This document shows positions 44,800 to 64,000 of a stretch of 64,000 nucleotides of DNA, in pieces. The stretch lies in NCBI GenBank assembly GCA_903875215.1, contig CAIQVH010000020.1:1-64000 (forward strand). The letters run 5' to 3'. Within the stretch, counting starts at the first letter, position 1. Each line of letters opens with the position of its first letter. The position numbers and the translations under genes are program-made. Source of the stretch: an uncultured Anaerolineae bacterium. Its GTDB lineage: Bacteria; Chloroflexota; Anaerolineae; Anaerolineales; Villigracilaceae. The notes under the pieces are model-generated. The model searched no databases and was not told the DNA's origin. It saw only the letters and a program-made list of their open reading frames with translations.

Positions 44800-44819
44800 C
44801 CGCCACAGGAGACGCCACA

Positions 44820-45411: not shown

Positions 45412-45465
45412 TTGTTGACCGATTTTTTGGAAATGAAGGATCTGAAACAGAAAAGGAGAAAAATC

Positions 45466-46281: not shown

Positions 46282-46285
46282 CTGC

Positions 46286-47107: not shown

Positions 47108-47268
47108 AACGGGCCTCATCCAAGAAACATCCAATGGGGGATGAAACGCCTGAAGTTGCCCATTTGCGCATTCTGACTTGAGAACTCCCTGTAAAATGTA
47201 TCAAATGTAGCGTTACAATTGTGTAAACTTGACTCGATTCATAATCTGTTCAACAAAGGAGAAAAACG

Positions 47269-48708: not shown

Positions 48709-48712
48709 ATTC

Positions 48713-48749
48713 AAAGGCCGGGGACTGCACAAGTCCCCGGCCTTTTTTT
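48713..48749. terminator. Strong bidirectional terminator
   Basis: AAAGGCCGGGGACT / AGTCCCCGGCCTTT, a 14-bp perfect stem with loop GCACA and T-runs on the + side (and A on the other), lies between the convergent aldehyde dehydrogenase and second padR genes. Confidence 0.92.
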
Positions 48750-48754
48750 CAAGA

Positions 48755-49288
48755 TTATAAATTTTCCTGATAGGAATCCAGCCAGGCGAGGGTGGCCTCG
48801 ATTTGGCCGATGCGATACTGGCGAATCAAGCTGCGATAAGAGCCCGGTGCGACGTTTTCCGCGGAAAACGTATCCAACCATTCCTGACAGGTGTTGCGCT
48901 GCAAGGTCAGTAAAGCGCGGGCTTTTTCCGGGTCATCCTGGCGTGCAAAATACAACTTGGCCATAAATTCCTGGCGCATCAGCCGCGGCATATTGACGGG
49001 GGAAAGCAGCCATTTCTGAAAAGCGGTTTGCCCCTCATGAGTGAGATGAAATACCCGGCGGGGTGGGCGGGCGGCTTCCTGCGGTTGCAACACGCCCCAA
49101 ATGCAACCATCATCTTCCAGTTTGGCGAGCAGCGCGTATAACTGGCTCTGCTTCAGATGCCAGATTGGCCCCAAACCTTCAGGGTTCGAGAGCATCAGAT
49201 GAATCTGATATCCATGCTGAGGCCCCTGCCGTAAAAAACCCAGCAGCGCCAGTTCAATTCCGGGGGGACGTCTTACCATTGGGCACAT
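48755..49288 (-). CDS. PadR family transcriptional regulator (second copy)
   Basis: 177 residues: PadR winged helix (IELALLGFLRQGPQHGYQIH; GPIWHLKQSQLYALLAKLED; HLTHEGQTAFQKWL) and a C-terminal dimer helix ending IEATLAWLDSYQENL, closely echoing the end of the first PadR (LTTVLEWLDECQKNF). So the two are paralogues. It is divergent from the molybdenum aldehyde oxidoreductase and its promoter has the same type of operator. ATG 49279 (MVRRPP) is an alternative start. Confidence 0.88.
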   Translation of the reverse strand: MCPMVRRPPGIELALLGFLRQGPQHGYQIHLMLSNPEGLGPIWHLKQSQLYALLAKLEDDGCIWGVLQPQEAARPPRRVFHLTHEGQTAFQKWLLSPVNMPRLMRQEFMAKLYFARQDDPEKARALLTLQRNTCQEWLDTFSAENVAPGSYRSLIRQYRIGQIEATLAWLDSYQENL

Positions 49289-49308
49289 GTCAGATCGAAT
49301 TCTCCTTG

Positions 49309-49348
49309 CTCAATAAATGAGTATACACAAAATGACGTCACGATTCAA
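49309..49348 (-). promoter_or_regulatory. Second padR promoter with CTCA-N5-TGAG operator
   Basis: Leftward TTGAAT (49348-49343) and TATACT (49325-49320), spacer 17, are followed by ACTCA-TTTAT-TGAG, overlapping the -10 as in the first padR gene. Confidence 0.7.
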
Positions 49349-49399
49349 TGTGACGTTTGTAATGAAACAATTGAAACAACAAATAGGCTGTGCTAATAT
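49335..49399 (+). promoter_or_regulatory. Promoter and upstream dyad of the Mo aldehyde oxidoreductase operon
   Basis: TTGAAA (49371-49376) and TAATAT (49394-49399) have a 17-base spacer. Upstream lies a dyad ACGTCAC-N8-GTGACGT (49335-49356), which overlaps the leftward padR -35 region. A hairpin GGAGAATT/AATTCTCC (49409-49441) lies in the leader. Confidence 0.65.
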
Positions 49400-49501
49400 T
49401 CTTCTTGTGGAGAATTCACAGGATTTGCTCGAAAATTCTCCATGCCAGCCATTGTCCATCAAAAGCACCACTCAAACTCGGAAAGGATATTCGGAGGAAC
49501 T

Positions 49502-52231
49502 ATGTTGAAGAAATCGCTCGTCATAAATGGGGTTAACAAATCACTGATTATTGACCCCGAAGCCAGCCTGGCTGATGTATTGCGCAAGCAACTGCTCCTG
49601 ACCGGCACGAAAGTTTCGTGCAATGATGGACATTGTGGCGCCTGCTCGGTCGTCGTGGATGGCAAACTCACCCTGGCCTGTGTGACCAAGATGAGCAAGG
49701 TTGCGGATGGCGCGGCCGTCATCACCGTGGAAGGCATCGGCACCCCGGAAAAGATGCACCCAATCCAGGTGGCCTTTGCCGTCTATGGAGCTGCACAGTG
49801 CGGTTTCTGCACCCCCGGCATGGTTGTTTCGGCCTATGCCCTGTTGACCAGTAACCCCAATCCAACCCGTGAACAGGTTCGCGACTGGCTGACCAAGCAC
49901 CACAACGCCTGCCGCTGCACCGGTTACAAACCGATCGTGGATGGCATCATGGAAGCCGGTAAAGTCATGCGCGGCGAGATGAAGCTCGAGGATTTGGAAT
50001 ACAAACTCCCCGCCGATGGCAAAATCTGGGGCGGCAAATATCCGCGCCCAACCGCGACTGCCAAAGTCACCGGCACGCTCGATTTCGGTCAGGATCTGGG
50101 CCTGAAAATGCCCGCCGACACCCTGCAGCTGGCACTGGTGCAGGCCAAGGTTTCGCACGCCAATATTCTCTCGATTGACACATCCGAAGCCGAGAAAATG
50201 CCCGGCGTCTTCAAAGTCGTCACTCACAAGGATGTCAAAGGCAAGAATCGCATCACTGGTCTGATCACCTTCCCGACCAACAAGGGAGATGGCTGGGATC
50301 GCCCGATTCTGTGCGACACCAAGGTCTTCCAGTATGGCGACGCGATTGCCATTGTCTGCGCTGATACCATTGAGCAGGCCAAAGCCGCCGCTGAAAAAGT
50401 CAAAGTGGAATTGGAAGAACTGCCCGCCTATATGAGCGCCCCGGCTGCCATGGCCGACGACGCCATCGAAATCCACCCCGGCACCCCCAACGTTTATTTC
50501 GAACAGAAAATCGCCAAGGGTCCCGACACCAAAGACATCATGGAATCGGCGCCCTATGTCGTCAGCGACAGTTTCTACCTCCAGCGCCAGCCCCATCTGA
50601 CGATTGAATCGGACATGGGCTTTGCCTATTACGATGAACAGGGCCGCCTGACCATTCACTCCAAATCGATCGGCCTGTACCTGCACCTGTACATGATTGC
50701 CCCAGGCCTGGGCGTTGAACCCGATAAACTGCGCCTGGTGCAGAACCCGGCCGGCGGCACCTTCGGCTACAAGTTCAGCCCGACCATGGAAGCCCTGCTC
50801 GGCGCGGCCTGCATCGCCACCGGACACCCGGTTTACCTGGAATACGATTATCAGCAGTACATGCAGTACACCGGCAAACGCTCGCCGTTCTGGCTGGATA
50901 TCAAGATGGCCGCCGACAAAGATGGCAAGATCATCGCCATGGAACACGATTACATCGTCGATCACGGCCCCTACTCCGAATTTGGCGATCTTCTGACCCT
51001 GCGCGGCGCGCAGTACATCGGCGCGGGCTACAACATCCCCAGCATTCGGGGCCGCGGCCGCACTGTCGCCACCAACCATGTTTGGGGCTCGGCCTTCCGT
51101 GCTTATGGTTCCCCGCAGTCCTTCCTGGCTTCTGAAAGCCTGGTGGATGAACTTGCTGAGAAAATGGGCATGGATCCGCTCGAATTCCGCTATATCAACG
51201 CTTATCGCCCCGGTTCCACCACCCCCACCGGACAGGATCCCGAAGTTTATTCCCTGCCCGAAATGCTGGAAAAACTGCGCCCGATCTACAAGGAAGCCAA
51301 AGAAAAAGCCGCCCGTGAATCGACTCCCGAAAACAAGAAGGGTGTCGGCGTCACGATCGGTATCTACGGCTGCGGTCTGGACGGTGTGGACGGCGCTGAA
51401 GCTGACGTTGAATTGACCAAAGACGGCGTGACCGTTTACAACACCTGGCAGGATCACGGCCAGGGCGCGGATATGGGTACCTTGGGCACCGCCCACGAAG
51501 CCCTGCGCCCGCTCGGCATCGCCCCCAGCCAGATCAAACTGGTGATGAACGATACCGGCCTGGTCCCCAACAGCGGTCCCTCGGGCGGCAGTCGCAGCCA
51601 GGTTGTGACCGGCAATGCCATCAAGAACGGCTGCGAACAACTGATCGCCGCCATGACCAAACCGGATGGCAGCTTCCGCACTTACGATGAAATGGTCGCC
51701 GCTGGCGCCCAACTGCGCTACACCGGCAAATGGGCTGCTTCGATGAACTCCAACTGCGATGCGAACGGTCAGGGTAACCCCTTTGCCGTCTACATGTACG
51801 GCGCCTTCCTGGCCGAAGTCAACGTCAACACCAAGAGCGGCAAGACTACGGTCGAAGGCATGACGGTCATGGCCGACATCGGCAAGATTAACAACAAGCT
51901 GGTTGTTGATGGTCAAATTTACGGTGGTGTGGCCCAGGGTATCGGCCTGGCGCTCTCCGAGGACTTCGAGGACATCGACAAGCACAGCACCATGCTGGGC
52001 GCCGGTATCCCGTATGCCAAGGATATCCCCGACAAGTTCGACATCCACTACTTTGAGAATGCCCGCGAACACGGCCCGTTTGGCGCTGCTGGCGTCGGCG
52101 AACTGCCGCTGACCTCGCCGCATGTGGCGGTGATTAACGCCATCTACAACGCGACCGGTGTGCGCATCCGCCATCTGCCCGCCCGCCCCGACAAGGTGTT
52201 GGCTGGCCTGAAGGCCCTGCAGCCCGCGTAA
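49502..52231 (+). CDS. mop: Molybdenum aldehyde oxidoreductase (MOP type, xanthine oxidase family)
   Basis: A 909-residue single-chain enzyme, nearly the length of Desulfovibrio gigas MOP (907). The N-terminal [2Fe-2S] domains are C-x4-C-x2-C (CNDGHCGAC) with a fourth Cys (LAC), and CGFCTPGMV...CRCTGYKP. The Mo domains follow (VQNPAGGTFGYKFSPTMEAL; RGRGRTVATNHVWGSAFRAY; GGSRSQVVTGNAIKNGC), ending with the catalytic Glu867 in GVGELPLTSP. There is no FAD domain, so electrons leave through an external carrier. It oxidises an aldehyde to an acid in the cytoplasm; the substrate is unknown. ATG 49502 has the strong site GGAGG. Confidence 0.93.
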   Translation: MLKKSLVINGVNKSLIIDPEASLADVLRKQLLLTGTKVSCNDGHCGACSVVVDGKLTLACVTKMSKVADGAAVITVEGIGTPEKMHPIQVAFAVYGAAQCGFCTPGMVVSAYALLTSNPNPTREQVRDWLTKHHNACRCTGYKPIVDGIMEAGKVMRGEMKLEDLEYKLPADGKIWGGKYPRPTATAKVTGTLDFGQDLGLKMPADTLQLALVQAKVSHANILSIDTSEAEKMPGVFKVVTHKDVKGKNRITGLITFPTNKGDGWDRPILCDTKVFQYGDAIAIVCADTIEQAKAAAEKVKVELEELPAYMSAPAAMADDAIEIHPGTPNVYFEQKIAKGPDTKDIMESAPYVVSDSFYLQRQPHLTIESDMGFAYYDEQGRLTIHSKSIGLYLHLYMIAPGLGVEPDKLRLVQNPAGGTFGYKFSPTMEALLGAACIATGHPVYLEYDYQQYMQYTGKRSPFWLDIKMAADKDGKIIAMEHDYIVDHGPYSEFGDLLTLRGAQYIGAGYNIPSIRGRGRTVATNHVWGSAFRAYGSPQSFLASESLVDELAEKMGMDPLEFRYINAYRPGSTTPTGQDPEVYSLPEMLEKLRPIYKEAKEKAARESTPENKKGVGVTIGIYGCGLDGVDGAEADVELTKDGVTVYNTWQDHGQGADMGTLGTAHEALRPLGIAPSQIKLVMNDTGLVPNSGPSGGSRSQVVTGNAIKNGCEQLIAAMTKPDGSFRTYDEMVAAGAQLRYTGKWAASMNSNCDANGQGNPFAVYMYGAFLAEVNVNTKSGKTTVEGMTVMADIGKINNKLVVDGQIYGGVAQGIGLALSEDFEDIDKHSTMLGAGIPYAKDIPDKFDIHYFENAREHGPFGAAGVGELPLTSPHVAVINAIYNATGVRIRHLPARPDKVLAGLKALQPA

Positions 52232-52242
52232 CCTTTTCTACC

Positions 52243-52277
52243 AAGGGGAGCGTTCGTCAAGGGCGCTCCCCTTTTTT
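52243..52277 (+). terminator. Rho-independent terminator after mop
   Basis: AAGGGGAGCG / CGCTCCCCTT with an 11-base loop and six T, 11 bases after the stop. It would limit read-through into the accessory genes. Confidence 0.9.
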
Positions 52278-52310
52278 ATCCACTTGTACGCTTGAAGTCA
52301 GACCTTTTTT

Positions 52311-52398
52311 GTACACGGATTACGCGGATAACACGGAATCTCACGGATTTTTTAAGAATAATCCGCGTAAATCCGTTCAATTCGTGAAATCCGTGTAC
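52311..52398. repeat. Long imperfect hairpin of ACACGGATT units
   Basis: GTACACGGATT and AATCCGTGTAC close an 88-base imperfect palindrome built from repeated (A)CACGGAT(T) words (TACACGGAT, ACACGGAATC, TCACGGATT). A very similar element lies at 57604-57698. It is the main content of the 223-base gap between mop and the next gene. Confidence 0.8.
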
Positions 52399-52454
52399 GA
52401 TTTTAGGTTTTGAAATCATACGCACATTGACCGACTTTGATGGATAATTAATCC

Positions 52455-54818
52455 ATGGATCAAAAACAACTGCGCGAACAGGAAAATCGTTGTATCCAGG
52501 AACAGGCTCCAGCCTGCACTGCCGCTTGCCCGGCGCATGTGGATGTGCGTGGACTGGCAGCGGAAATCGCCAAAGGGGATTTCGCCGCCGCGTATAATTT
52601 GTACCGCAAGGCGGTGCCGTTCCCGGGGATTATCAGCCGGATCTGTCCACAGCCGTGCCAGAGCACTTGCTTACGGAAGGATTTAGGCGGCTCGATCGAA
52701 ATCGCCGCGCTGGAACGGGCCGCGCTAGAATTTGGTTCCGCGGAGGCGGAAGCCATCAAGGCGCTGCCTAAAAAATCGAAAACGGTGGCCGTTATCGGCG
52801 CGGGCATTAGCGGATTAACCGTCGCGCACGATTTGGCGCGCAAAGGCTGGGGCGTGGTAATCTACGAGGCCAGCGACCGGCTAGGCGGCGGATTGTGGCA
52901 GAGTCCGCCTGATTTGCTGCCGCGCGATGTTCTTGTCAACGACCTGAAGGTGATCGAGACATTGGCTATCGAAGTCCGCCTGAATTCAAGTGTGGGACAC
53001 ACTGGCGGCAACGGGCACAGCACCTTCCTGGCGCGGCTGTGCGAAGAATATGATGCCGTCTTTCTCGGGATTGGCGCTCATTCCACGGACATACCCGATC
53101 TACAGCTGAATGCCAACGGCCAGGTGCAGGTCGATCCGCTCACCTTTCAAACCAGCCTCGAAAAAGTCTTTGCCGGAGGCGATGTATTAAGAGTATCCGT
53201 TCAGGCTCCCGAGCGGGAAATCAGGCGTTCAGCGGTTTTATCCATTTCGGATGGACGCCGCGCCGCCACTTCGATCGACCGCTTCCTGCAAAAAGTCTCG
53301 CTGACGGCCTCGCGCAGCAACGAAGGATCCTACGAAACCCGTCTGTACACCAACACGAGCGAAATCCAGCCGCAAACAGCGCTGCTTGAAACCGACCTTT
53401 CCACGCGCTATGCTCGCGAAGTGGCCGAAACCGAGGCGGCGCGCTGTATCCAGTGCGAGTGCCTGGAGTGTGTCAAAAACTGTGAATATCTCAGCCATTA
53501 CAAGGGCTATCCCAAGAAATACATCCGTGAGGCATACAACAATCTTTCGATTGTGATGGGCACGCGCCATTCGAATCAGTTTATCAATTCCTGCGCGCTG
53601 TGCGGATTGTGCGCCGAAATCTGTCCGACGGATGTGGATATGGGCGCGGTCTGCCACGAAGCGCGTGTGACGATGGTGGAGCAGAAGCGCATGCCCGCCT
53701 CGGCGCATGATTTCGCGCTGCGGGATATGGCTTTTTCCAACGGAGAGAAGTTTGCGCTGGCCAGGAACGCCCCCGTCACCGGTGTGTCGGAATACGTGTT
53801 TTTCCCCGGCTGCCAATTGAGCGGTTCGTCGCCAGAGCATGTCGAAAAAGCCTACGCTTTCCTGCGCGAGAATCTCCCCAACGTGGGGCTGATGCTGCGC
53901 TGCTGCGGCGCTCCCGCCGATTGGGCCGGTCGCCAGGAAGTTTTTGCCAATTCACAGGCGGAATTCCGCGCGGAGTATGAGAAACTGGGCAAGCCGAAGG
54001 TGGTGCTGGCCTGTTCGAGCTGCTATCAGGTGTTCCAGAAACACTACCCGGATGTGGAGATTGTCTCGCTCTGGGAGTTGTATGACCAACATGGCCTGGG
54101 GCAGGCTTCAGGGCGGGTTTTTCCAGATAAAATAACGGTACATGACCCGTGCTCGACTCGCTACGAAAACGGAATCCAGGATTCAGTGCGGAACATCCTA
54201 AAAAAATTGGGCTGTGAAGTGGAAGAATTGGTCAACAGTCGCGAAAAAACCGAGTGCTGTTCGTATGGCGGCGTGATGTGGCTGGCGAATAAACCGGTGG
54301 CTGAAAAAATGGTGCAGCGCCGCATTAACGAAAGCCCGCTCGATTATGTGACGTACTGCGCCATGTGCCGCGACTTTTTTGCGCGGCGCGGCAAACGCAC
54401 GCTGCACCTGCTGGATTTGATGTACGGTGTTTCGACAGGCTCAACACAGGCTCCCCCTGTCGGCTTTTCTCAGCGCCACGAGAACCGCGCGCGGTTGAAA
54501 GAAAAACTTTTGCGAGAATTATGGAGTGAAACCATGCCCGAAGGCGCCGCTTTTGAGTCGATCCGATTGATTTTGCCTGATGACGTGCAAAAAATGGTTG
54601 AAGACCGCCTGATTCTGGTCGAAGACATTCAAAAAGTGCTTGAATATGCCGAACGCACCGGCAAGCGCATGTTCAACGCCGCCAGCGGGCATTACCTGGC
54701 CTACTACAAGCCCACCAGCGTCACCTATTGGGTCGAGTACACGCCGATGGATGGCGCGTTTTTGGTGCACCGCGCCTACAGTCACCGCATGGAAATCGGC
54801 ATGGGAGCGCAAAAATGA
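52455..54818 (+). CDS. FAD/Fe-S oxidoreductase (GltD-like plus HdrB/GlpC-like cysteine domains)
   Basis: 787 residues. The N-terminal Fer4_20 domain (PACTAACPAHVDVRG; ICPQPCQSTCLRKD) is followed by an FAD domain (VIGAGISGLTVAHDLARKGW, truncated relative to GltD). Two ferredoxin-like clusters come next (CIQCECLECVKNC; CALCGLCAEICPTDVDMG), then two CCG-type domains (FFPGCQLSG...CCGAPADW...CSSCY; HDPCSTRY...CCSYGGVMW) and a ~90-residue tail (YYKPTSVTYWVEY). It looks like an electron hub, perhaps taking electrons from MOP. It resembles the DVU_1558-type neighbour of MOP in Desulfovibrio (from memory). It overlaps the next start (ATGA). Confidence 0.82.
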   Translation: MDQKQLREQENRCIQEQAPACTAACPAHVDVRGLAAEIAKGDFAAAYNLYRKAVPFPGIISRICPQPCQSTCLRKDLGGSIEIAALERAALEFGSAEAEAIKALPKKSKTVAVIGAGISGLTVAHDLARKGWGVVIYEASDRLGGGLWQSPPDLLPRDVLVNDLKVIETLAIEVRLNSSVGHTGGNGHSTFLARLCEEYDAVFLGIGAHSTDIPDLQLNANGQVQVDPLTFQTSLEKVFAGGDVLRVSVQAPEREIRRSAVLSISDGRRAATSIDRFLQKVSLTASRSNEGSYETRLYTNTSEIQPQTALLETDLSTRYAREVAETEAARCIQCECLECVKNCEYLSHYKGYPKKYIREAYNNLSIVMGTRHSNQFINSCALCGLCAEICPTDVDMGAVCHEARVTMVEQKRMPASAHDFALRDMAFSNGEKFALARNAPVTGVSEYVFFPGCQLSGSSPEHVEKAYAFLRENLPNVGLMLRCCGAPADWAGRQEVFANSQAEFRAEYEKLGKPKVVLACSSCYQVFQKHYPDVEIVSLWELYDQHGLGQASGRVFPDKITVHDPCSTRYENGIQDSVRNILKKLGCEVEELVNSREKTECCSYGGVMWLANKPVAEKMVQRRINESPLDYVTYCAMCRDFFARRGKRTLHLLDLMYGVSTGSTQAPPVGFSQRHENRARLKEKLLRELWSETMPEGAAFESIRLILPDDVQKMVEDRLILVEDIQKVLEYAERTGKRMFNAASGHYLAYYKPTSVTYWVEYTPMDGAFLVHRAYSHRMEIGMGAQK

Positions 54819-55027
54819 GCCAATACGTTGATCTTTCCGCTTATCAGGGCTGGGCTTGCGCCGATTGTGGCCAGCCGCTCGTGCCCGGCAGTGTGGATGT
54901 TTCCTACCTGGGCAACTCCTTCCCGGTGGAACTGCTCAAATGTCCCGGCTGCGGCCTGGTTTTCGTTCCCGAAGAGCTGGCGCTCGGCAAAATGGTCGAA
55001 GTGGAAAAGGCCCTGGAGGATAAGTAG
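54815..55027 (+). CDS. Small zinc-ribbon-like CxxC redox protein (DVU_1557-like)
   Basis: 70 residues with two CxxC pairs (WACADCGQPL and LLKCPGCGLVFV) and the ending ALGKMVEVEKALEDK. It should bind zinc or iron rubredoxin-style. The pattern matches my recollection of the DVU_1557 'redox protein' family found only in this type of locus. It overlaps both neighbours (ATGA before, TAGTG after), so it is strictly co-translated. Confidence 0.8.
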   Translation: MSQYVDLSAYQGWACADCGQPLVPGSVDVSYLGNSFPVELLKCPGCGLVFVPEELALGKMVEVEKALEDK

Positions 55028-55701
55028 TGGCGGTTCCGCTGTACGAGCATCCGGTTTGGGAAAGCCTGCCGGATCAAGTCATGCGTCCCGGCGGCCTGAT
55101 TCTCACGGAACGGGCTTTTTCATTCGCTGAATTGGCTTCCGGCTCCCGGGTGCTGGATTTGGGCTGCGGGCTGGGTGCCACACTGCGGCATCTCTCCGCG
55201 GATTACGGGCTGGCCGCTTTCGGGGTGGACGTTTCATCCCCGTTGCTGGGGCGGGCTGACCGCGATGATAAGGTGGCGTTCGTCCAGGCGCGGAGCGAGC
55301 AATTGCCGCTGGCAAGTGAAAGCATAGGTGCGGTCATTTCGGAGTGTACGCTCTCGTTGTTTGAGATGGAGTCGGCGCTGCGGGAAGTTGTTCGGGTGTT
55401 GAAACCGGGCGGCTGGTTCATCGTCAGTGATTTATACGTCCGCAATGTGGATGGAATCGCGGCGCTGCGGCAACTCCCGGCGGGGACGAGCATCGGCGCG
55501 GCGATGGCACAGGAAGAAATCGAGGCCAAAATTGCGGCCTGCGGGCTGGACATCGTGACCTGGCAGGATTGCTCGGAGCATTTGAAGGCTTTCCCGTTTT
55601 GTAGGCTGTCCACGGCGGCGGAGGTCAATCCGTTTGACCTGGTCATCGCGGCGGGGAAGGCGAAGTTGGGTTATTACGTGATGGTGGCGAGAAAATCTTA
55701 A
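55027..55701 (+). CDS. SAM-dependent methyltransferase (TrsM/DVU_1556-like)
   Basis: A 224-residue class I methyltransferase: motif I VLDLGCGLGATLRHL, motif II-like FGVDVSSPLLGRA, ISECTLSLFEMESAL, and motif VLKPGGWFIVSDLYV. The start is the GTG sharing one base with the previous stop (TAGTG). Its substrate is unknown; family neighbours suggest it modifies a product or intermediate of the radical SAM protein in the same operon. Confidence 0.82.
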   Translation: MAVPLYEHPVWESLPDQVMRPGGLILTERAFSFAELASGSRVLDLGCGLGATLRHLSADYGLAAFGVDVSSPLLGRADRDDKVAFVQARSEQLPLASESIGAVISECTLSLFEMESALREVVRVLKPGGWFIVSDLYVRNVDGIAALRQLPAGTSIGAAMAQEEIEAKIAACGLDIVTWQDCSEHLKAFPFCRLSTAAEVNPFDLVIAAGKAKLGYYVMVARKS

Positions 55702-55779
55702 ACACGAAGGACACGAAGTACACAAAGGGAAAATAAATATAACCGGTTTTCCTTCGTGACCTTGGTGCCCTTTGTGTTT
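55700..55779. repeat. Imperfect inverted repeat of CACGAAGG words
   Basis: AAACACGAAGGACACGAAG and CTTGGTGCCCTTTGTGTTT are 16 of 19 complementary and fill the 92-base gap before the C-GCAxxG-C-C gene. It is similar in design to the ACACGGATT hairpins flanking this operon. Confidence 0.6.
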
Positions 55780-55793
55780 AGAAAGGTTTTTTT

Positions 55794-56243
55794 ATGGATA
55801 ACGAACTCGAACAATTAATGGTGTTACGCCGCCAGGGATTTTATTGCAGCCAGATCCTGATGCTGCAAGGCCTGGAACAGATGGGCAAAAGCAACCCGGA
55901 GCTGATTCGCGCGATGCATGGGCTGGCGGGCGGGTTGGGTTTTTCAGGCGAGTTGTGCGGCGCGCTGACGGGCGGCGCATCCCTGTTGGGGCTGTATGCT
56001 GGAAAAGGCGAAGCCGATCAGCCCGAAGACCCGCGTCTCGATTTCATGATCATGGATCTGGTCAAATGGTTCAAGACGGAATATGCTGAACAGTTTGGCG
56101 GTATTCGCTGCGAGGAAATTTTGGCCGGAAACAGCCAGAACCAGGTCACACGCTGTCCAATCCTGGTGACGGGCGTGCTCCAGAAGGTCAAGGAATTATT
56201 AGTGGAAAACGGCTATGACCTTTCGGGGCTGGAAAATGAGTGA
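55794..56243 (+). CDS. C-GCAxxG-C-C family protein (DVU_1555-like)
   Basis: 149 residues of the C_GCAxxG_C_C type: Cys in FYCSQILMLQ, the core LCGALTGGASLLGLY, then IRCEEILAG and VTRCPILVTG, giving the family's spaced cysteines. Such proteins are thought to hold a redox cofactor or metal and often accompany electron-transfer or radical enzymes. The biochemical role is unknown. It overlaps the radical SAM gene by 8 bases. Confidence 0.82.
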   Translation: MDNELEQLMVLRRQGFYCSQILMLQGLEQMGKSNPELIRAMHGLAGGLGFSGELCGALTGGASLLGLYAGKGEADQPEDPRLDFMIMDLVKWFKTEYAEQFGGIRCEEILAGNSQNQVTRCPILVTGVLQKVKELLVENGYDLSGLENE

Positions 56244-57597
56244 AACTTTATCAATAACAGAAAGTGTCTGCCCTGAGTGTTTGAATCGCATCCCTGCTGC
56301 GCGGGTGCAATATGGCGAGGATATCTATCTCGAAAAGGAATGCCCCGCACACGGGCAGTTCAAAACCATCATCTGGCGCGGAAGCCCGGCTTTTAGCGGC
56401 TGGGTGCGGCCAAAAACCCCTTCTTTCCCTAAAAATCCGTTCACTGAAGTGCGGCAGGGCTGTCCGTTTGACTGCGGATTGTGCCCCGAGCATGAGCAGC
56501 AATCCTGTTGCGTGCTGCTCGAAGTGACCCAGCGCTGCGATTTGCATTGCCCGGTCTGCTTTGCGGATGCGGCTCATTGTCCTCCTCCTGACCTGACGCA
56601 CGTTGAAATCCGTGCCTGGTACCAGCGTTTGCTGGAGGCGGGCGGACCCTTCAACATCCAGCTTTCGGGCGGCGAACCGTGCGTCCGTGACGATTTGGCG
56701 GAAATCATCCGCATTGGGCGTTCGTATGGCTTTACCTTCTTCCAGTTAAACACCAACGGCTTGCGGATTGCCCGCGATTTGGCCTATCTTTCCGAACTCA
56801 AGGAAGCCGGGCTTTCGACGGTGTTCCTGCAATTTGACGGCACGCGCGATGAGATTTTTCGCACCATCCGTGGGCGGGAACTGCTCGAAAAGAAAATGGC
56901 AGTCATCGAAAACTGCGCCCGGCTTGACATCGGCGTGGTGCTGGTGCCGACGTTGGTGCCGGGCGTCAACACCGACAATATTGGCGATATTCTGAAACTG
57001 GCGCTGGCTCACATGCCGACGGTGCGCGGTGTGCACTTCCAGCCGGTTAGCTATTTTGGCCGCTACCCGGAGACTCCCACCGATGAAATGCGGATCACCA
57101 TCCCGGAAGTGATTTGCGCCATTGCAACCCAGACCGGCGGCCTGATTCCCGCTTCGACGCTGTGTCCGCCCGGTGGGGAGAATGCGCTGTGCTCCTTCCA
57201 CGGAAACTACGTGCTGATGCCGGATGGCGCGCTCAAGCCGCTCACCCGCCACAAAGGTGAATCCTGCTGCCAGCCGGTTCCGGCAGCGGAGGGCGCCCTC
57301 CGCTCGCGGGAGTTCGTCGCGGAGCATTGGTCAACGCCAGCGACGAGCCTTTCCGTACTCAGTGGGCCGAGCTTTGGCGAGTGGGATGTCTTTCTCGAAC
57401 GCAAGCGCACCCACACCTTTTGCGTCTCCGGGATGGCCTTTCAGGACGCCTGGACCCTCGACCTTGAGCGCCTGCGTGACTGCTACATCCACACCGCCAG
57501 CCCGGATGGGCGGCTGGTGCCGTTCTGCGCGTACAACCTGACGAACCGGAACGGGAAGGCGCTTTACCGTCAAACGAATGTCGTTGCGAATGCGTAG
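56236..57597 (+). CDS. Radical SAM protein (TrsS-like, COG1964 type)
   Basis: 453 residues. The N-terminus has a CPECLNRIPA zinc-knuckle-like start and the signature GCPFDCGLCPEHEQQSCCVL. The radical SAM motif CDLHCPVCFADA (CxxxCxxC) follows, then GGEPCVRDD and a C-terminal Cys-rich stretch (LCPPGGENALCSF). The arrangement matches the group containing tetraether-lipid-synthase-like enzymes and TrsS, whose members sometimes carry selenocysteine; here all are Cys codons. The reaction is unknown. Start is ATG 56236 inside the end of the preceding gene. Confidence 0.85.
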   Translation: MSETLSITESVCPECLNRIPAARVQYGEDIYLEKECPAHGQFKTIIWRGSPAFSGWVRPKTPSFPKNPFTEVRQGCPFDCGLCPEHEQQSCCVLLEVTQRCDLHCPVCFADAAHCPPPDLTHVEIRAWYQRLLEAGGPFNIQLSGGEPCVRDDLAEIIRIGRSYGFTFFQLNTNGLRIARDLAYLSELKEAGLSTVFLQFDGTRDEIFRTIRGRELLEKKMAVIENCARLDIGVVLVPTLVPGVNTDNIGDILKLALAHMPTVRGVHFQPVSYFGRYPETPTDEMRITIPEVICAIATQTGGLIPASTLCPPGGENALCSFHGNYVLMPDGALKPLTRHKGESCCQPVPAAEGALRSREFVAEHWSTPATSLSVLSGPSFGEWDVFLERKRTHTFCVSGMAFQDAWTLDLERLRDCYIHTASPDGRLVPFCAYNLTNRNGKALYRQTNVVANA

Positions 57598-57603
57598 GAT
57601 TGG

Positions 57604-57698
57604 GGACACGGATTTGACGGATTACACGGAAAAACACGGATTTTTTAAGCTTTAATGCTCTATCCGTGTTCATCCGTAAATCCGTGTAATCCGTGTCC
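57604..57698. repeat. Long imperfect hairpin of ACACGGATT units (second copy)
   Basis: GGACACGGATT and AATCCGTGTCC close a 95-base palindrome of ACACGGAT words. It mirrors the element at 52311-52398 and shares the central ACGGATTTTTTAAG segment with it. It lies between the radical SAM and ligase genes. Confidence 0.82.
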
Positions 57699-57735
57699 AA
57701 AAATTCTTTGCCTGACAATATCCAAATCATCGACA

Positions 57736-58992
57736 ATGAAACTTACCCCCCTTGACCCCTGGATTAAGCAAAAAACATCTGCCAGCGAGTTGGCTGATTG
57801 GCAATTGTTGAAATTGAATGAAACCCTGGCCCTGGCGCGAGGCAAAAGCCCTTTTTACCGGAAACTTCTGGCAGGAATGCCGGAGAAACTCACCAGCCTG
57901 GATGATTTTTCCCGTTTTCCGTTTACCACGCCGGAGGATGTGCGCGCGAATCCGCTGCGGTTGGTGTGCGTCTCGCAAGATGAGATTCAACGCGTGGTGA
58001 CGCTGCAAAGTTCGGGGACGACGGGCGAGCCGAAGCGGATTTATTTCACGGCGGAGGATCAGGAACTGACGATCGACTTTTTCGGGGTGGGTATGTCCAC
58101 GCTGACGGAGCCGGGGGAGCGGGTGCTGATTTTTCTGCCCGGGGAGACGCCCGGCAGTGTGGGCGATTTGCTGCGGCTGGGATTGGCGCGGCAGGGACGG
58201 ATTCCGCTGCCGTATGGGCCGGTGCGTGACCCGCATCATGCGCTCGAAACGATAGAAAGCCAGCAGGTGGATTGCCTGGTTGGGTCGCCGACGCAGATTT
58301 TGGGGCTGGCGCGGCGCTGGAATCCGTGCGGCAAGGCGCCGCGCACTGTGCTGCTCTCGACGGATTACGTCCCGGCGGCGATTGTGCGCGAATTGGAGCG
58401 GATTTGGGGCTGCCAGGTGTTCAATCACTACGGCGCCACCGAGATGGGCTTGGGCGGCGGCGTGGAGTGTGAAGCGCATCTCGGTTATCACCTGCGCGAA
58501 GCGGATTTGTACTTTGAGATTGTCCACCCTGAAAGCGGGGAACCGCTGCCGGAGGGCGAATATGGCGAGGTGGTCTTTACCACGCTGACGCGGCGCGGAA
58601 TGCCGCTCATCCGCTACCGCATGGGCGACCGGAGCCGGTTTTTGCCGGGAAAATGTCCGTGTGAAAGCAGTCTTCGGACGCTGGAAAAAGTCCGGGGGCG
58701 GTTTAGTGGGTTTGTGTCAGCGGGCGGTGAAACTCTGAAGCTGCCGGATTTTGACGAGGCGTTGTTTCCCATTCCGGGGCTGCTCAATTTTTCAGTAACG
58801 GTAACAGGCGACGGGGCGGAAGCGTCCCTGCTCGTCGAAACGCAGATGCTGACCAGCGAGGATTCCACCAGTTTGGTGGAGCAGGCGCTGCGGGGCGTTT
58901 CATCCATAAAAACAACGGTGAAGTGTCACCATAATCCAAACGAAGTTGGGAATTTACTCAAAAGAGTGCTCAAGCGAGGTCAAGATGCGTGA
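57736..58992 (+). CDS. AMP-forming acyl-CoA synthetase-like ligase (DVU_1553-like)
   Basis: 418 residues with the ANL motifs: TLQSSGTTGEPKRIYFT (P-loop), FNHYGATEMGLGGG, YRMGDRSRFL and a shortened C-terminal domain. It is closest to phenylacetate-CoA-ligase-like enzymes (no lid Lys in an obvious place, and only ~90 residues after YRMGD). It could activate the acid made by MOP or an intermediate of the radical SAM pathway. ATG 57736 follows the hairpin repeat; its end overlaps xdhC by 8 bases. Confidence 0.83.
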   Translation: MKLTPLDPWIKQKTSASELADWQLLKLNETLALARGKSPFYRKLLAGMPEKLTSLDDFSRFPFTTPEDVRANPLRLVCVSQDEIQRVVTLQSSGTTGEPKRIYFTAEDQELTIDFFGVGMSTLTEPGERVLIFLPGETPGSVGDLLRLGLARQGRIPLPYGPVRDPHHALETIESQQVDCLVGSPTQILGLARRWNPCGKAPRTVLLSTDYVPAAIVRELERIWGCQVFNHYGATEMGLGGGVECEAHLGYHLREADLYFEIVHPESGEPLPEGEYGEVVFTTLTRRGMPLIRYRMGDRSRFLPGKCPCESSLRTLEKVRGRFSGFVSAGGETLKLPDFDEALFPIPGLLNFSVTVTGDGAEASLLVETQMLTSEDSTSLVEQALRGVSSIKTTVKCHHNPNEVGNLLKRVLKRGQDA

Positions 58993-60049
58993 AGTTTTTG
59001 CGGAAGTTGAAGCCTGGCGCGCCGCCGGGAAGCCGGTGGCAATTGCCACGAATGTCAAGCGTGAAGGCTCGTCGCTGCGCCCGCTGGGCGCCAAGATGGC
59101 GATGACGAAATCGCAGGAGATTGCCGGGTCGGTGACGGGCGGCTGTATCGAGGGCGTGGTGTACGAGGAAGCGCAGGGCGTGATGAAAAGCGGTACGCCG
59201 AAACTGCTGCATTATGGCGTGGTGGGTGACGAAAATCCGTGGGAAGTGGGGCTGAGCTGCGGCGGCTCGCTGGATGTGTTTGTCGAAACGCTGGATGCGC
59301 CGGGCTGGCGCGAGATTTATCCGGCGCTGAAAACCTGCCTGGAGCAGGGACAGCTGGCGGCGGTGGCGACGGTCATCGCCGGGCCGGGCCTGGGAAACAA
59401 GTTGATGCTCTGGCCGGACGGGCGCACGCTCGGCAGCCTGGGCAGCGCGGCGCTGGATGGGCAGGCTGCCGAGTGGATGCAGGCGCAGATCGCCGTGCAG
59501 GAAACCACCTGGAAGGCGTTTACGCTGGCGGGCGAAACGGTGGATGTGTTTGTGGACGTGTTCGCGCCGGTCTCGCGCATGGTGGTGATTGGCGCGGTGC
59601 ATATTGCCATCCCGCTGGTGACGCTGGCCCATGCGCTTGGCTATCGCACGATTGTGATTGACCCGCGCGAGGCCTTTGCCACCCGTGAGCGCTTCCCGCA
59701 CGTCGACGAGTTGCTGACCGATTGGCCGTCTGTGGCGCTGGAAGCCCTACGCCCGGATGAAGGCACGTATATCGCTGTCATCAGCCATGATGAAAAACTG
59801 GATAATCCGGCGCTGGCGGTGGCGCTGAAAAGCCCGGCGCGCTACGTCGGCGTGCTGGGGACGCGCAAAAAAATCCCGCTGCGGTTTGCAGCGCTGCGGG
59901 AACTGGGCGTGACGGATGAGCAGTTGGGGCGCCTGCGCGCGCCCATCGGGATGAATATCGGCGCGGTGCTGCCGGATGAGATTGCGCTGTCGATTCTGGC
60001 CGAGATGGTTTCGGCTAAACACGGGAAATTGGGGATTGGTAATTCGTAA
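58985..60049 (+). CDS. xdhC: XdhC/CoxI family molybdoenzyme maturation protein
   Basis: A 354-residue XdhC: VAIATNVKREGSSLRPLGAK (Moco-binding N-domain), GSVTGGCIEGVVYEEAQ, VGLSCGGSLDVFVE, then a Rossmann C-domain (VVIGAVHIAIPLVTLAHALG, with Ala-Val where GxG usually lies) and VGVLGTRKKIPLRFAALREL plus RLRAPIGMNIGA. XdhC proteins bind Moco and promote its sulfuration for xanthine-oxidase-family enzymes, so it should mature the MOP enzyme at the start of this island. Confidence 0.9.
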   Translation: MREVFAEVEAWRAAGKPVAIATNVKREGSSLRPLGAKMAMTKSQEIAGSVTGGCIEGVVYEEAQGVMKSGTPKLLHYGVVGDENPWEVGLSCGGSLDVFVETLDAPGWREIYPALKTCLEQGQLAAVATVIAGPGLGNKLMLWPDGRTLGSLGSAALDGQAAEWMQAQIAVQETTWKAFTLAGETVDVFVDVFAPVSRMVVIGAVHIAIPLVTLAHALGYRTIVIDPREAFATRERFPHVDELLTDWPSVALEALRPDEGTYIAVISHDEKLDNPALAVALKSPARYVGVLGTRKKIPLRFAALRELGVTDEQLGRLRAPIGMNIGAVLPDEIALSILAEMVSAKHGKLGIGNS

Positions 60050-60057
60050 TTGGGAGT

Positions 60058-61152
60058 TCAGGAAACCCAAGAAATCATGCCGGTTTGGGTGGTATCGTAG
60101 CCGCCCAGGTTGTGGATGGCGGCTTTGGCTTGGGGTGAGTCCAGCCAGCCTTTGAGCGCCTGTACGGTGTCCATCTCCCATGTTTCTGCGGGGATGACCA
60201 GATCGTAGCGCTCAGTTGTCAGCAGTTTGAAATCCAGTCCGAATGAGAGCGCCGCCGTTTCCACGCCCAGGCCCACATCCGCCTGGCCCTTGCTGATGGC
60301 GCGCGCCACTTCGGAATGAGTCATTTTTTCGTCGGAATAGCCGGAGATGGCGGATGGGTCGAGGCCAGCGCGCTGCAGCTGGGCATCCAGCCAGACGCGC
60401 GTCCCGGAGCCTGGCTGCCGATTAACGAAACGGATTCCAGCCCGGGCCAGATCCGTCAAATCACTCACCCCGAGCGGATTTCCCGGCGCGAGAATCAAGC
60501 CTACCCGGCGCTGCGCCAGCGTCAACAGCGCCACCTTTTGCCCCGGTAATAATTTCTGCACAAAGGGTTCGTTGTACGTATCGGTATTCTCATCCCACAG
60601 GTGACAGCCTGCCAGGTCGGCTTTTTTCTCAGCCAGGGCAATCAGCCCGCCCAGGCTGCCGGTGAAAGAGAGTTGCAGGGTAAAGCCCTCGGTCACTTCG
60701 TGGTAATGGGCGGCGATCAACGCCATAGCCGGGTCGTGACTGCCGACAAAGCGTAAAACATCGGGCGCGGGCTGCTCCGGTTCGCTGGAGAAAGTCCGCC
60801 AGCGGTCGAGCGCAACGCGGATGGATTGCTCCACTTCATCGGGAGTGTACCCAGCTGTCATGATTTCCAGTAAAAAAGCCTCGGTGCGATTGAAGAGCGT
60901 CGCCCGTCGCAGCGGAGTTTGATTCTGCTCCGGCAGCGTATCCACCACCTTGGTGCCCTGGCCAACGTGGCTGACCACCAATCCCTGGCGGGCCAGTTCC
61001 TGATAAGCGCGCATGATCGTGCCGGTGGTGCAATCCCACTGCTCGGTCAGTTTGCGCATGGCGGGCAGGGGATCGCCCGGTTTGAGCATCCCCGAGAGAA
61101 TCTCAGCGCGTATTGATTCGACGATTTGTTGGTAGAGATGGGCCTGGTCCAT
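60058..61152 (-). CDS. GntR-type regulator with molybdate-binding PBP-like domain
   Basis: 364 residues. Residues 1-~75 are a GntR winged helix (QQIVESIRAEILSGMLKPGD; CTTGTIMRAYQELARQGLV). Residues ~130-364 are a periplasmic-binding-protein-like domain of the COG1910 type (RFVGSHDPAMALIAAHYHEV; GLIALAEKKADLAGCHLWDE; RFVNRQPGSGTRVWLDAQL; GQADVGLGVETAAL). That domain is used as a molybdate or tungstate sensor in other regulators. I infer a metal-oxyanion-responsive repressor of the Mo genes. The start at 61152 follows a helix-free AT stretch; longer readings lack a site. Confidence 0.85.
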   Translation of the reverse strand: MDQAHLYQQIVESIRAEILSGMLKPGDPLPAMRKLTEQWDCTTGTIMRAYQELARQGLVVSHVGQGTKVVDTLPEQNQTPLRRATLFNRTEAFLLEIMTAGYTPDEVEQSIRVALDRWRTFSSEPEQPAPDVLRFVGSHDPAMALIAAHYHEVTEGFTLQLSFTGSLGGLIALAEKKADLAGCHLWDENTDTYNEPFVQKLLPGQKVALLTLAQRRVGLILAPGNPLGVSDLTDLARAGIRFVNRQPGSGTRVWLDAQLQRAGLDPSAISGYSDEKMTHSEVARAISKGQADVGLGVETAALSFGLDFKLLTTERYDLVIPAETWEMDTVQALKGWLDSPQAKAAIHNLGGYDTTQTGMISWVS

Positions 61153-61392
61153 GCTTTGAGTATAGTGCGATGAAGCATAAATGGCAAGCACTGCTGCTGG
61201 GGCTGGTCCCGGCAGTGTGAGAGACCGTCTTTATTTTTCCGGTAAAACTTCGCGTAGTATTACGGCACTCGCAGTCGGATCCGGCCCAGGCGAGATTGGC
61301 GTACGTCACAGCGGGAGTTAAATGTTCTCGTTGGGGATTTTTCCGGCGGTACCTTATAATTGTAAGGAAAATTGCATTCAACGGAGGCGCGT

Positions 61393-62916: not shown

Positions 62917-62982
62917 TCGCCTGCGCAGACCGGCCCAATCAGTCTGCCGGGTTGGTCATCAACCTGAAAGAAGAAGGACTCT

Positions 62983-63621: not shown

Positions 63622-63664
63622 AGAGCTGAAAAACCTCCTTTGGAACAACCCCGGCTGGAGCGGG

Positions 63665-63706
63665 GCACACTCTGCCGGGAGATTTCTTTTTCCCGGCAGA
63701 GTGTGC
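63665..63706. terminator. 16-bp perfect hairpin
   Basis: GCACACTCTGCCGGGA / TCCCGGCAGAGTGTGC with a T-rich 10-base loop lies 44 bases after the SGNH hydrolase. It has no T-run after the stem, so termination by this alone is uncertain. Confidence 0.6.
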
Positions 63707-63775
63707 ATGTCCCATACGGTGCTTTGCAATTATCTTGATAGATTCATGCAGGCCATGGGGTTATAAAATCGGCCC

Positions 63776-64000
63776 ATGAAAATTACCTTTCTGGGCACCC
63801 ACGGACAATTCAATATCGGCGACGAACTGTTGCTCGAAACTTTCCTCGCGCAGTTGGGCAAAGAGCACCACTATGCAGTCAACTCCTATGACCCGGATTT
63901 CACCCGCCAGGCGCTGCAACCACAATTCTCAGTGGAGACCTTTCACACCACTGGCGAACTGCGCCGCTTTCTTCACCATCTGTTGACCAGTGACCTGCTC
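63776..64000 (+). CDS. Polysaccharide pyruvyl transferase family protein (partial)
   Basis: The first 75 residues run off the window. The opening MKITFLGTHGQFNIGDELLL matches the polysaccharide pyruvyl transferase (CsaB/WcaK) fold, where the glycine-rich GxxxxGD segment lies after strand 1. Members add pyruvate ketals to cell-surface glycans, for instance for S-layer attachment, or act as related glycosyl enzymes. No firm assignment is possible from the fragment. Confidence 0.65.
   Translation, partial: MKITFLGTHGQFNIGDELLLETFLAQLGKEHHYAVNSYDPDFTRQALQPQFSVETFHTTGELRRFLHHLLTSDLL

Follow-up and report, generated by a model that had tools for sequence, protein, structure and literature searches.

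The window, a 64,000-nucleotide stretch of DNA from an uncultured Anaerolineae bacterium, carries eight genes between positions 49502 and 60049, all on the forward strand and all free of inner stops in a reading-frame check. They lie in the order MOP-FLAV-CXXC-MT-CGA-TrsS-LIG-XdhC, the usual order of the DVU_155x genes. With the chosen starts, FLAV and CXXC overlap by 4 nt, CXXC and MT by 1 nt, and CGA and TrsS as well as LIG and XdhC by 8 nt each, so the eight genes and four overlapping pairs of the first-pass annotation stand. Aldehyde dehydrogenases flank the cluster on either side within the window.

Table 1. Features of the cluster and its upstream region in the window.
Feature	Position	Strand	Description
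PadR-type regulator	48755..49288	-	divergent; Pfam PadR
Conserved upstream block	49299..49403		contains TGACGTCAC and GTGACGTTTGTAAT; matches in close relatives
MOP	49502..52231	+	Desulfovibrio gigas-type molybdenum aldehyde oxidoreductase; two [2Fe-2S] domains, Moco domains; NF045668
FLAV	52455..54818	+	flavoprotein; FAD domain, 4Fe-4S dicluster, CCG domains; NF045663, Pfam
CXXC	54815..55027	+	small two-CxxC protein, rubredoxin- or zinc-ribbon-like; DUF7479; NF045645, PF24292
MT	55027..55701	+	class I SAM-dependent methyltransferase, DVU_1556 family; GTG start; NF045667
CGA	55794..56243	+	C-GCAxxG-C-C protein, predicted split-Soret cytochrome fold, four invariant Cys; NF045669
TrsS	56236..57597	+	Tes-like radical SAM protein, ligands of four metal sites, Cys form; NF045646
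LIG	57736..58992	+	PaaK-like AMP-forming ligase, DVU_1553 family; chosen ATG start; NF045666
XdhC	58985..60049	+	XdhC-like factor of Moco maturation; both XdhC domains score over cut-off in Pfam

In NCBIfam the DVU_1551-1559 set of Desulfovibrio vulgaris consists of nine families (NF045645, NF045646 and NF045663-NF045669). Eight of them were matched, seven over the curated cut-off, and they stand in the order usual for the set. The nine were not all found over cut-off in one neighborhood: XdhC scored 209.9 bits against NF045664 (cut-off 350), and the MocA-like NTP transferase (NF045665) is absent from the cluster; its best match in the same genome lies on a different contig and scores 130.8 bits (cut-off 315). 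The host also differs and belongs, judging from its nearest relatives, to the Chloroflexota. Because NCBI models, named after DVU_1551-1557 and TrsS, cover these families, the gene set itself is already catalogued. A search of the literature collection used here found no described function or pathway for it, in agreement with the first-pass annotation; for TrsS, PMC13188914, in excerpt, cites a 2025 paper, PMC12013261.

MOP scored 1655 bits against NF045668 (cut-off 1100), which places it with the D. gigas-type enzymes, and shares its domain order with the D. gigas aldehyde oxidoreductase (1SIJ, 1VLB and others). The crystallised D. gigas enzyme has a 100% identical MOP in one genome, which encodes all eight genes in the order of the window; the window MOP is 67% identical to that MOP over 907 aligned columns. 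Together with the DVU names, this genome supports the link to Desulfovibrio drawn in the first-pass annotation. Purified from D. gigas and modelled over 907 residues (PMC3877041, PMC10223205, in excerpt), the D. gigas enzyme gave the first structure from the xanthine-oxidase family (PMC10223205, in excerpt). As described in excerpts of both papers, its cofactor is the ordinary pyranopterin cytidine dinucleotide and has no equatorial sulfido ligand; a modified cofactor on MOP, one of the earlier suggestions, is therefore disfavored. In vitro it oxidises aldehydes, and its electrons can reach hydrogenase through flavodoxin and cytochrome c3 (PMC10223205, in excerpt), whereas the cluster in the window has FLAV, CXXC and CGA instead.

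These three proteins all scored over their NCBIfam cut-offs: FLAV with 1041 bits (NF045663), CXXC with 104.8 bits (NF045645) and CGA with 161.5 bits (NF045669). Residues 18-211 and 198-396 of FLAV align with 101-290 and 425-629 of NfnB-like chains, leaving 291-424 uncovered, and by sequence alignment FLAV lacks the NAD(P)H-binding subdomain that flavoproteins of the NfnB/GltD type carry as an insertion in their FAD domain. In CXXC, which also matched PF24292, C15, C18, C43 and C46 each show a conservation of 90% or more across 37 rows. CGA is a member of the C-GCAxxG-C-C family (PF09719, 87.4 bits, cut-off 27) with Cys 18, 55, 106 and 121 invariant in 37 rows, and this four-Cys protein probably carries Fe-S. 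Its predicted fold resembles that of the split-Soret cytochrome c of D. desulfuricans 27774 (1H21; Z 10.8 over 133 residues, the profile match being weak at E 1.3e-4), which, going by its structure title, presumably has an iron centre. Unlike 1H21, CGA has no CxxCH haem motif, and it is shorter (149 residues against 240). The redox complex proposed earlier is plausible for FLAV, CXXC and CGA. At L121, where the cluster has no TrsS, CGA and CXXC also occur with a second MOP type.

TrsS scored 685.4 bits against NF045646 (cut-off 490) and is a member of that family, but its 348.1 bits against the tetraether lipid synthase (Tes) model NF045702 fall under the cut-off of 450. Its predicted structure superposes on Tes structure 7TOM with a Z of 44.2 at 2.0 Å over 396 residues (39% identity). 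With Tes, or GDGT-MAS (MJ0619, 7TOL, 7TOM), it shares this fold, the rubredoxin site C-x2-C-x20-C-x2-H, the N-terminal cluster motif C-x3-C-x2-C plus His, the SAM cluster and the Met ligand of the C-terminal cluster. The ligands of the rubredoxin site, N-cluster and SAM cluster and Met439 are present in all 38 TrsS rows (numbering from PMC9433317, in excerpt). TrsS differs from Tes in that Tyr459 occurs in none of the 38 rows (V, T, I and other residues take its place), Gly stands where Tes has the Cys preceding Met439, the two aligned stretches are 81 residues apart rather than 121, and the gene context includes MOP. In the excerpted Tes literature, Tyr459 is fully conserved among 1,000 archaeal homologues and the Y459F and Y459L enzymes remain active; the residue therefore marks the family rather than the chemistry. 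Tes acts on unactivated carbon, and a sulfur-carbon intermediate has been observed (PMC9433317, in excerpt). The window TrsS has no in-frame TGA that would point to a selenoprotein. In the loci compared, TGA codons inside TrsS matches lie C-terminally in four genes, where each nears its end; the others are in L111, where a lower-scoring tandem copy starts, and in L013, in a match that is spurious.

LIG scored 462.5 bits against NF045666, over the cut-off, matches PaaK structures (E 1.1e-40) and has conserved adenylation motifs; MT scored 184.4 bits against NF045667 (cut-off 155). In 73 of the 80 loci that we collected by TrsS similarity, LIG is found no more than 700 nt downstream of TrsS, and MT is missing in 4 of 50 well-flanked loci. 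The motifs leave room for the earlier idea that the product is carried to a CoA ester, but LIG tracks TrsS rather than MOP. The first-pass annotation had also suggested seeking a short peptide substrate nearby. Comparison with seven relatives found no conserved precursor gene for a RiPP or peptide-derived cofactor in the cluster gaps: the MOP-FLAV gap was matched over just 44 nt in one relative, the MT-CGA gap gave a 24-nt match elsewhere in that same locus (L005), and the TrsS-LIG gap had no match.

We surveyed the 80 loci and the genomes of two orders. The gene order of the window is found again in members of the Chloroflexota, Bacillota, Thermodesulfobacteriota and Campylobacterota, bearing out a set conserved across phyla, and judging by their names the hosts range over sulfate reducers, acetogens and Anaerolineae among others. 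Among 199 genomes from the order of a Desulfovibrio (G251), TrsS is encoded in 124 of 128 MOP genomes and MOP in 124 of 127 TrsS genomes, while 68 encode neither. In a Chloroflexota order (251 genomes), TrsS is found in eight of nine MOP genomes, MOP in all eight TrsS genomes and neither in 242. MOP and TrsS are nearly inseparable in both orders sampled, and the expected non-random co-occurrence holds for this pair (Fisher p 2.9e-44 and 2.6e-14, one per order, with related genomes treated as independent).

Physical linkage of the two is not required. In G458 the MOP-FLAV-CXXC-MT-CGA-LIG-XdhC-NTP cluster (L118) does not contain TrsS, which is encoded in a separate cluster (L065); of eight genomes without MOP at the fetched TrsS locus, six have a MOP over cut-off elsewhere. 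MOP and MT are both missing locally at three TrsS loci (L055, L065 and L081). Three genomes encode TrsS with no MOP over cut-off: G460 (best 779 bits), G464 (best 256 bits) and G121 (86% complete), which has a CGA-like protein, the C-terminal FLAV domain as a separate protein (L095), CXXC, MT and LIG. Conversely, a search of G261, which encodes MOP on a contig of 270 kb, gave no TrsS match at E<=1e-25. TrsS, LIG and MT look like a small-molecule module for which adjacency to MOP is not required. The neighbor clusters identified were NTP transferase, response regulator, MoeA-like, GntR and PadR regulators, DUF364, cysteine-desulfurase-like and ABC ATPase.

The clusters of selenium-dependent molybdenum hydroxylases of the EF2568 type, which we take to be a comparable system, have XdhC and a MocA-like NTP transferase in common with the gene set. 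Sporomusa-type loci also have an EF2568-like cysteine desulfurase under the model cut-off, and the copy in L046 is closest to TIGR01977/EF2568 (340.9 bits, cut-off 377). The window MOP is not itself a selenium-dependent molybdenum hydroxylase, as its 438.9 bits against TIGR03311 are under the cut-off of 830. XdhC, MocA-like and MoeA-like genes lie in the neighborhood of TrsS in sampled loci. In nine of the 80 loci a DUF3343-like gene directly precedes TrsS, with a cysteine-desulfurase-like gene ahead of it, which suggests sulfur or selenium supply.

From the gene order, module composition, co-occurrence, predicted folds and conserved ligands, we tentatively read this Anaerolineae member of the DVU_1551-1559 set as three joined modules in which a TrsS-LIG-MT pathway works with MOP, and give this close to an even chance. 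One module would be the D. gigas-type MOP with ordinary Mo cofactor and its redox partners: FLAV as an electron hub (FAD and Fe-S) that lacks an NAD(P)H site, CXXC as a rubredoxin-like protein, and CGA, probably an Fe-S protein. Moco maturation would be served by XdhC here and by MocA-like and MoeA-like proteins in other genomes. In the third, small-molecule module, TrsS is most likely Tes-like, its 5'-deoxyadenosyl radical abstracting hydrogen from an unactivated sp3 carbon. A sulfide of the Met-ligated C-terminal cluster would hold the carbon radical until it is coupled to carbon or leaves as a C-S product. LIG may turn a carboxylate of the same compound into the acyl-AMP or CoA form, MT may add a methyl, and MOP would run an aldehyde/carboxylate step, with FLAV, CXXC and CGA carrying electrons. 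The product, probably a metabolite, would be soluble and act in trans. This pathway is assembled from gene adjacency, and its substrate and product are putative. The absence of MT from the four loci, the three TrsS loci that lack MOP and MT, the TrsS genomes without MOP, G261 and L121 count against it. That the three enzymes make a diffusible substrate, cofactor or electron carrier by Tes-like carbon-radical chemistry, and that MOP exists to process this compound and not simple aldehydes, is possible but somewhat doubtful.

The same three enzymes could instead modify MOP or FLAV, CXXC and CGA, or load a cofactor into them. Such maturation would predict most of the same co-occurrence: D. gigas-type MOP seldom occurs without TrsS, and TrsS is present in all ten genomes that encode two or more MOP copies of >=60% identity (G277 is not counted, since its two pieces come from a single split gene). 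The neighboring Moco genes and the possible sulfur or selenium supply fit as well. We nevertheless consider it unlikely, given the ordinary cofactor of the D. gigas enzyme, the module without D. gigas-type MOP in G121 and a CoA-type ligase that would be unusual in maturation, although changes to FLAV, CXXC or CGA, for which no structure is known to us, may still occur. The genes might also form a catabolic operon, in which TrsS opens a hydrocarbon- or lipid-like compound anaerobically at an sp3 C-H, MOP oxidises the aldehyde and LIG makes the CoA ester. The Tes-type chemistry, the PaaK-like LIG, the flanking aldehyde dehydrogenases and the range of hosts are consistent with this. No beta-oxidation or ring-cleavage enzyme was found among the identified neighbor clusters (several others were antisense ORFs or unassigned), LIG tracks TrsS and not MOP, and MT is left without a role. 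Each of 122 genomes has a single TrsS at E<=1e-120, unlike a catabolic radiation, and the operon seems to us distinctly improbable.

In excerpts of PMC8941075, Zeng et al. propose branched GDGTs as a possible product of bacterial Tes homologues, and 456 of these homologues are put forward collectively as candidates for membrane-spanning lipid synthesis. The closeness of TrsS to Tes in fold and sequence would suit this role, but TrsS is under the Tes cut-off, lacks the Tes tyrosine (itself dispensable for activity in the Y459F and Y459L enzymes) and would leave the link to MOP and Moco genes unexplained. Moreover, all ten other Tes-like Chloroflexota genes that we retrieved have no MOP, FLAV, CXXC, CGA, LIG or XdhC over 25 bits nearby (two are on contigs under 6 kb). 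We judge lipid synthesis by TrsS very improbable. Least credible is an ordinary aldehyde oxidase among unrelated neighbors; the in vitro activity of the D. gigas enzyme agrees with it, but the order is conserved across phyla and co-occurrence is near-complete in two separate samples.

As one set of helper genes, with a Tes relative among them, almost always accompanies MOP in distant anaerobic bacteria, its real job in the cell is likely not yet known. In the sampled genomes the MOP gene lies within, and seldom leaves, a set that also includes genes for a Tes-like radical enzyme, a ligase and a methyltransferase, which points to a dedicated pathway and gives context to a group of bacterial Tes relatives. 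If the three enzymes do make a diffusible compound, one branch of the bacterial Tes homologues would make no lipid. The roles of this long-studied model enzyme and of TrsS become testable in D. vulgaris by gene deletion.

The block upstream of MOP was matched in six of seven close relatives searched, the seventh (L008) ending short of it, and its sequence is probably that of an operator or promoter. The divergent PadR-type gene probably regulates the cluster, and a PadR-like gene lies near TrsS in 13 of the 80 loci.

The eight genes of the cluster encode a Desulfovibrio gigas-type molybdenum aldehyde oxidoreductase (MOP), a flavo-Fe-S protein (FLAV), a small protein with two CxxC motifs (CXXC), a methyltransferase (MT), a C-GCAxxG-C-C protein (CGA), a Tes-like radical SAM protein (TrsS), an AMP-forming ligase (LIG), and the Moco maturation factor XdhC. 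The best match of each is a model of one curated NCBIfam set. Seven score over the curated cut-offs, while XdhC reaches 209.9 bits against a cut-off of 350. The cluster lacks the ninth family of the set, a MocA-like NTP transferase; the nearest gene in the same genome scores 130.8 bits against a cut-off of 315. In D. vulgaris Hildenborough the counterparts of MOP, LIG, and MT are DVU_1559, DVU_1553, and DVU_1556, and TrsS would be DVU_1554 from its position. As the first-pass annotation had it, four adjacent gene pairs overlap, by 4, 1, 8, and 8 nt. The gene set is already catalogued by NCBI. Within a limited literature search we found no described function or pathway for it in print, in line with the earlier view that its function is undescribed.

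Features of the cluster and its flanks
Feature	Coordinates	Strand	Remark
ModA/ModB, molybdate transporter	45412-47107		upstream of cluster
PadR regulator	48755-49288		divergent, facing cluster
Intergenic block with TGACGTCAC and GTGACGTTTGTAAT	49299-49403		conserved in close relatives
Eight-gene cluster	49502-60049	+
Hairpin-forming ACACGGATTACACGGA-type repeats	52311-52398 and 57606-57703		two intergenic gaps of cluster
GntR-type regulator with periplasmic-binding-like domain	60058-61191	-	after cluster

The ModA and ModB genes fit a molybdenum enzyme. An aldehyde dehydrogenase is also encoded in the upstream flank and a second one downstream. The GntR-type regulator aligns with the C-terminal region of a model for a molybdopterin biosynthesis protein, scoring 230.7 bits (below the cut-off), and molybdate or a related ligand may be the signal it senses. 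The hairpin repeats resemble dispersed palindromic repeats. A MIR408 match (32 bits, gathering score 64) coincides with one of them and was rejected; no riboswitch scored over gathering within 44000-64000. The gaps between the cluster genes hold no conserved short ORF that could code for a RiPP precursor, the peptide substrate proposed earlier as worth a search.

To survey the set, we scanned genome contigs with the TrsS of the window and kept the best 80 loci of 177 relatives. TrsS, being the query, is present in all 80 by construction; the other genes are not. Fifty loci are well flanked (8.5 kb or more upstream, 4 kb or more downstream). All 50 encode CGA and LIG, 49 CXXC, 48 FLAV, and 46 MT, with MOP in 38, XdhC in 31, the NTP transferase in 27, and a MoeA-like protein in 12. 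The 12 loci without MOP by threshold comprise five whose edge holds a fragment of MOP, one with a frameshifted MOP, one with a lower-scoring MOP, one with another MOP type, and four without any MOP in the locus. As named, the hosts are Chloroflexota, Bacillota, Thermodesulfobacteriota, Campylobacterota, Myxococcota, and Pseudomonadota, so among these best 80 of 177 loci the set is conserved across phyla as proposed. A quick tree of 80 TrsS sequences (79 loci and the window) has 10 phylum changes against a minimum possible of 5, suggesting that its history probably includes some transfer, misbinning, or paralogy.

Other genes recur in part of the 80 loci. A relative of the GntR-type regulator is present in 13. 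A DUF4213 and DUF364 protein ("putative heavy-metal chelation"), absent from the window, is encoded in 11 (L006, L017, L018, L021, L024, L025, L027, L028, L038, L045, and L057), with all copies except two directly before FLAV or LIG, and may be a further, optional member. Nine loci have a gene we take to be DUF3343-like directly before TrsS, itself preceded by a cysteine-desulfurase-like gene; the L046 copy of the DUF3343-like gene had no match in a family search. Sporomusa-type clusters share a conserved protein of some 90 residues, seen at L046 4378-4665 and in eight further loci of Bacillota; its gene usually lies between MT and an XdhC gene that is split. Its L046 copy matches nothing in Pfam or NCBIfam.

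We then examined how often MOP and TrsS occur together. The first sample was 199 genomes from the order of G251, a Desulfovibrio, presumably the Desulfovibrionales. With thresholds of E<=1e-120 for TrsS and at least 60% identity for MOP (weaker MOP matches, including the sole match of G296, were dropped before the count), TrsS was found in 122 genomes, MOP in 128, and both in 119. The two genes lie within 8 kb in 109 of the 119 pairs, 27 kb apart in one, and on separate contigs in nine. When the nine MOP-only genomes were searched again, five proved to have the cluster, their TrsS match being split and therefore missing the E threshold. In three others (G335, G337, and G339) MOP is on contigs of 3.7-7.5 kb with no TrsS at E<=1e-25. 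G261 is an unexplained exception to the tie: its contig with MOP is 270 kb long, and a search of the genome at E<=1e-25 finds no TrsS. Its MOP is of the D. gigas type (67% identity), with no cluster gene within the 19 kb fetched (L107). In the TrsS-only genomes (G325, G403, and G445) the cluster is at or near a contig end. TrsS genes are tandem or doubled at L111 in G445 and at L065. The corrected table has 124 genomes with both, three with TrsS only, four with MOP only, and 68 with neither (p 2.9e-44); the second search covered the MOP-only and TrsS-only genomes, the 68 standing as first counted. Among 251 genomes of a Chloroflexota order, that of G257, TrsS is encoded in eight, MOP in nine, both in eight, and neither in 242 (p 2.6e-14, or 2.2e-11 without G257 and G258, already known TrsS carriers). 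The MOP of G646, a genome of this order, is partial (2-855 of 905), and TrsS was not found there. MOP and TrsS thus co-occur beyond chance in both samples, as the earlier annotation supposed, with all these p values ignoring shared ancestry. When 251 Chloroflexota genomes were drawn evenly, two had TrsS above its cut-off and one had MOP above its own; the window's genome belongs to both counts.

The exceptions show what travels with what. Three loci (L055, L065, and L081) encode FLAV, CXXC, CGA, TrsS, and LIG without MOP or MT, and MOP is elsewhere in each genome. In the genome of L065, a further locus (L118) has the full set without TrsS. At L121, FLAV, CGA, and CXXC accompany a MOP of a second type, and TrsS, LIG, and MT are absent from the 20 kb fetched; the same genome has a TrsS locus (L047). 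No MOP over the cut-off is found in G121, G460, or G464, and the G121 locus (L095) is a minimal set of a CGA-like protein, a protein of about 90 residues that is just the C-terminal domain of FLAV, CXXC, MT, TrsS, and LIG. These exceptions lead us to read the set as a redox module (MOP, FLAV, CXXC, and CGA), a synthesis module (TrsS, LIG, and often MT), and a Moco module (XdhC, the NTP transferase, and the MoeA-like protein). At L113, L114, L115, and L116, MOP-like enzymes of a second clade (706-760 bits) adjoin a cysteine-desulfurase-like gene. Neither CXXC nor TrsS is next door, and FLAV-like matches are weak (58-67 bits) and confined to two of these loci.

The cluster can be tied to a purified enzyme. 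The window's MOP aligns end to end with two crystallised Desulfovibrio enzymes, 1SIJ/1VLB (DgAOR, from D. gigas) and 1DGJ. In genome G351, MOP is 100% identical to the D. gigas chain over 907 residues, and the locus order is MoeA-like-MOP-FLAV-CXXC-MT-CGA-TrsS-LIG-XdhC. Its proteins share 67% (MOP), 39% (FLAV), 56% (CXXC), 41% (MT), 41% (CGA), 48% (TrsS), 44% (LIG), and 29% (XdhC) identity with those of the window. According to portions of two reports, DgAOR isolated from D. gigas cells cultured with lactate and sulfate contains pyranopterin cytidine dinucleotide, and its structure, solved at 1.28 Å, has an oxo ligand where the sulfido ligand would be (PMC10223205, PMC3877041).

The two readings of the set given most weight are that TrsS, LIG, and MT make a small molecule acting in trans and that they mature MOP or its redox partners. 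A modified cofactor on MOP, raised in the first-pass annotation, was dropped as the leading idea given the ordinary cofactor in those portions of the DgAOR reports, which makes a stable unusual group on MOP unlikely; a labile one could still be carried. Maturation of MOP or its partners is on the whole rather improbable. MOP and TrsS are strictly tied but need not be physically linked, and the cofactor of MOP is an ordinary one; taken together, this favors a trans-acting product over MOP modification, and we tentatively hold to that product, at a little under even chances. XdhC is a loose end, as the family, in the part of one study that describes it, serves enzymes with an equatorial sulfur ligand (PMC2997495), and it is in the cluster despite the oxo ligand of DgAOR.

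The AlphaFold model of TrsS (pLDDT 89) matches the archaeal tetraether lipid synthase Tes (7TOM) with Z 44.2 and rmsd 2.0 Å over 396 residues at 39% identity; the next family is MoaA (Z 21.7). Invariant in 38 TrsS rows are the residues of the rubredoxin site (C12, C15, C36, and H39), the N cluster (C76, C80, C83, and H86), and the SAM cluster (C101, C105, and C108), along with M400, equivalent to Tes Met439. C319, C416, and C431 are likewise invariant and are likely the Cys ligands of a third cluster. Unlike these, Tes Tyr459 is kept in none of the 38 rows. The portions of the Tes work consulted describe a sulfur-carbon adduct that builds up at limiting SAM and an M439A variant that is still active, so retention of the Met says more about descent than about mechanism. 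No credible in-frame TGA for selenocysteine is present in the TrsS genes of the loci examined, the L111 and L013 rows being left aside.

One match of the CGA model (pLDDT 91.5) stands out: it aligns to split-Soret cytochrome c (1H21) over 133 residues with Z 10.8, and the runner-up reaches 3.7. For helical bundles a Z below about 13 may carry little meaning, so the predicted split-Soret type of fold rests on that gap and on a profile match (E 1.3e-4); Foldseek alone gives E 0.16. Four Cys are invariant in 37 CGA rows, and 1H21 reportedly shows a [2Fe-2S]-type EPR signal. The FAD and ferredoxin parts of FLAV match NfnB-like chains. FLAV, on the other hand, has nothing that aligns with the stretch of about 134 residues of those chains in which the NAD(P)H subdomain would be expected, so the label "pyridine nucleotide-disulfide oxidoreductase" should probably not be taken to mean NAD(P)H-linked. 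LIG is PaaK-like and conserves the SGT-G--KR, YG-TE, and C-terminal KR motifs, to which we presume catalytic roles.

As a control, we fetched 10 Tes-like, non-TrsS genes of Chloroflexota and their surroundings; for two of them the contig is shorter than 6 kb. No MOP, FLAV, CXXC, CGA, LIG, or XdhC scores above 25 bits near any of the 10, and by eye none has a Met at the M400 position. Four of the 10 (L125, L127, L130, and L132) adjoin a methyltransferase that is broadly of the MT type, scoring 121-129 bits against the MT profile, and the Tes-like/methyltransferase pair may therefore be older than the link to MOP.
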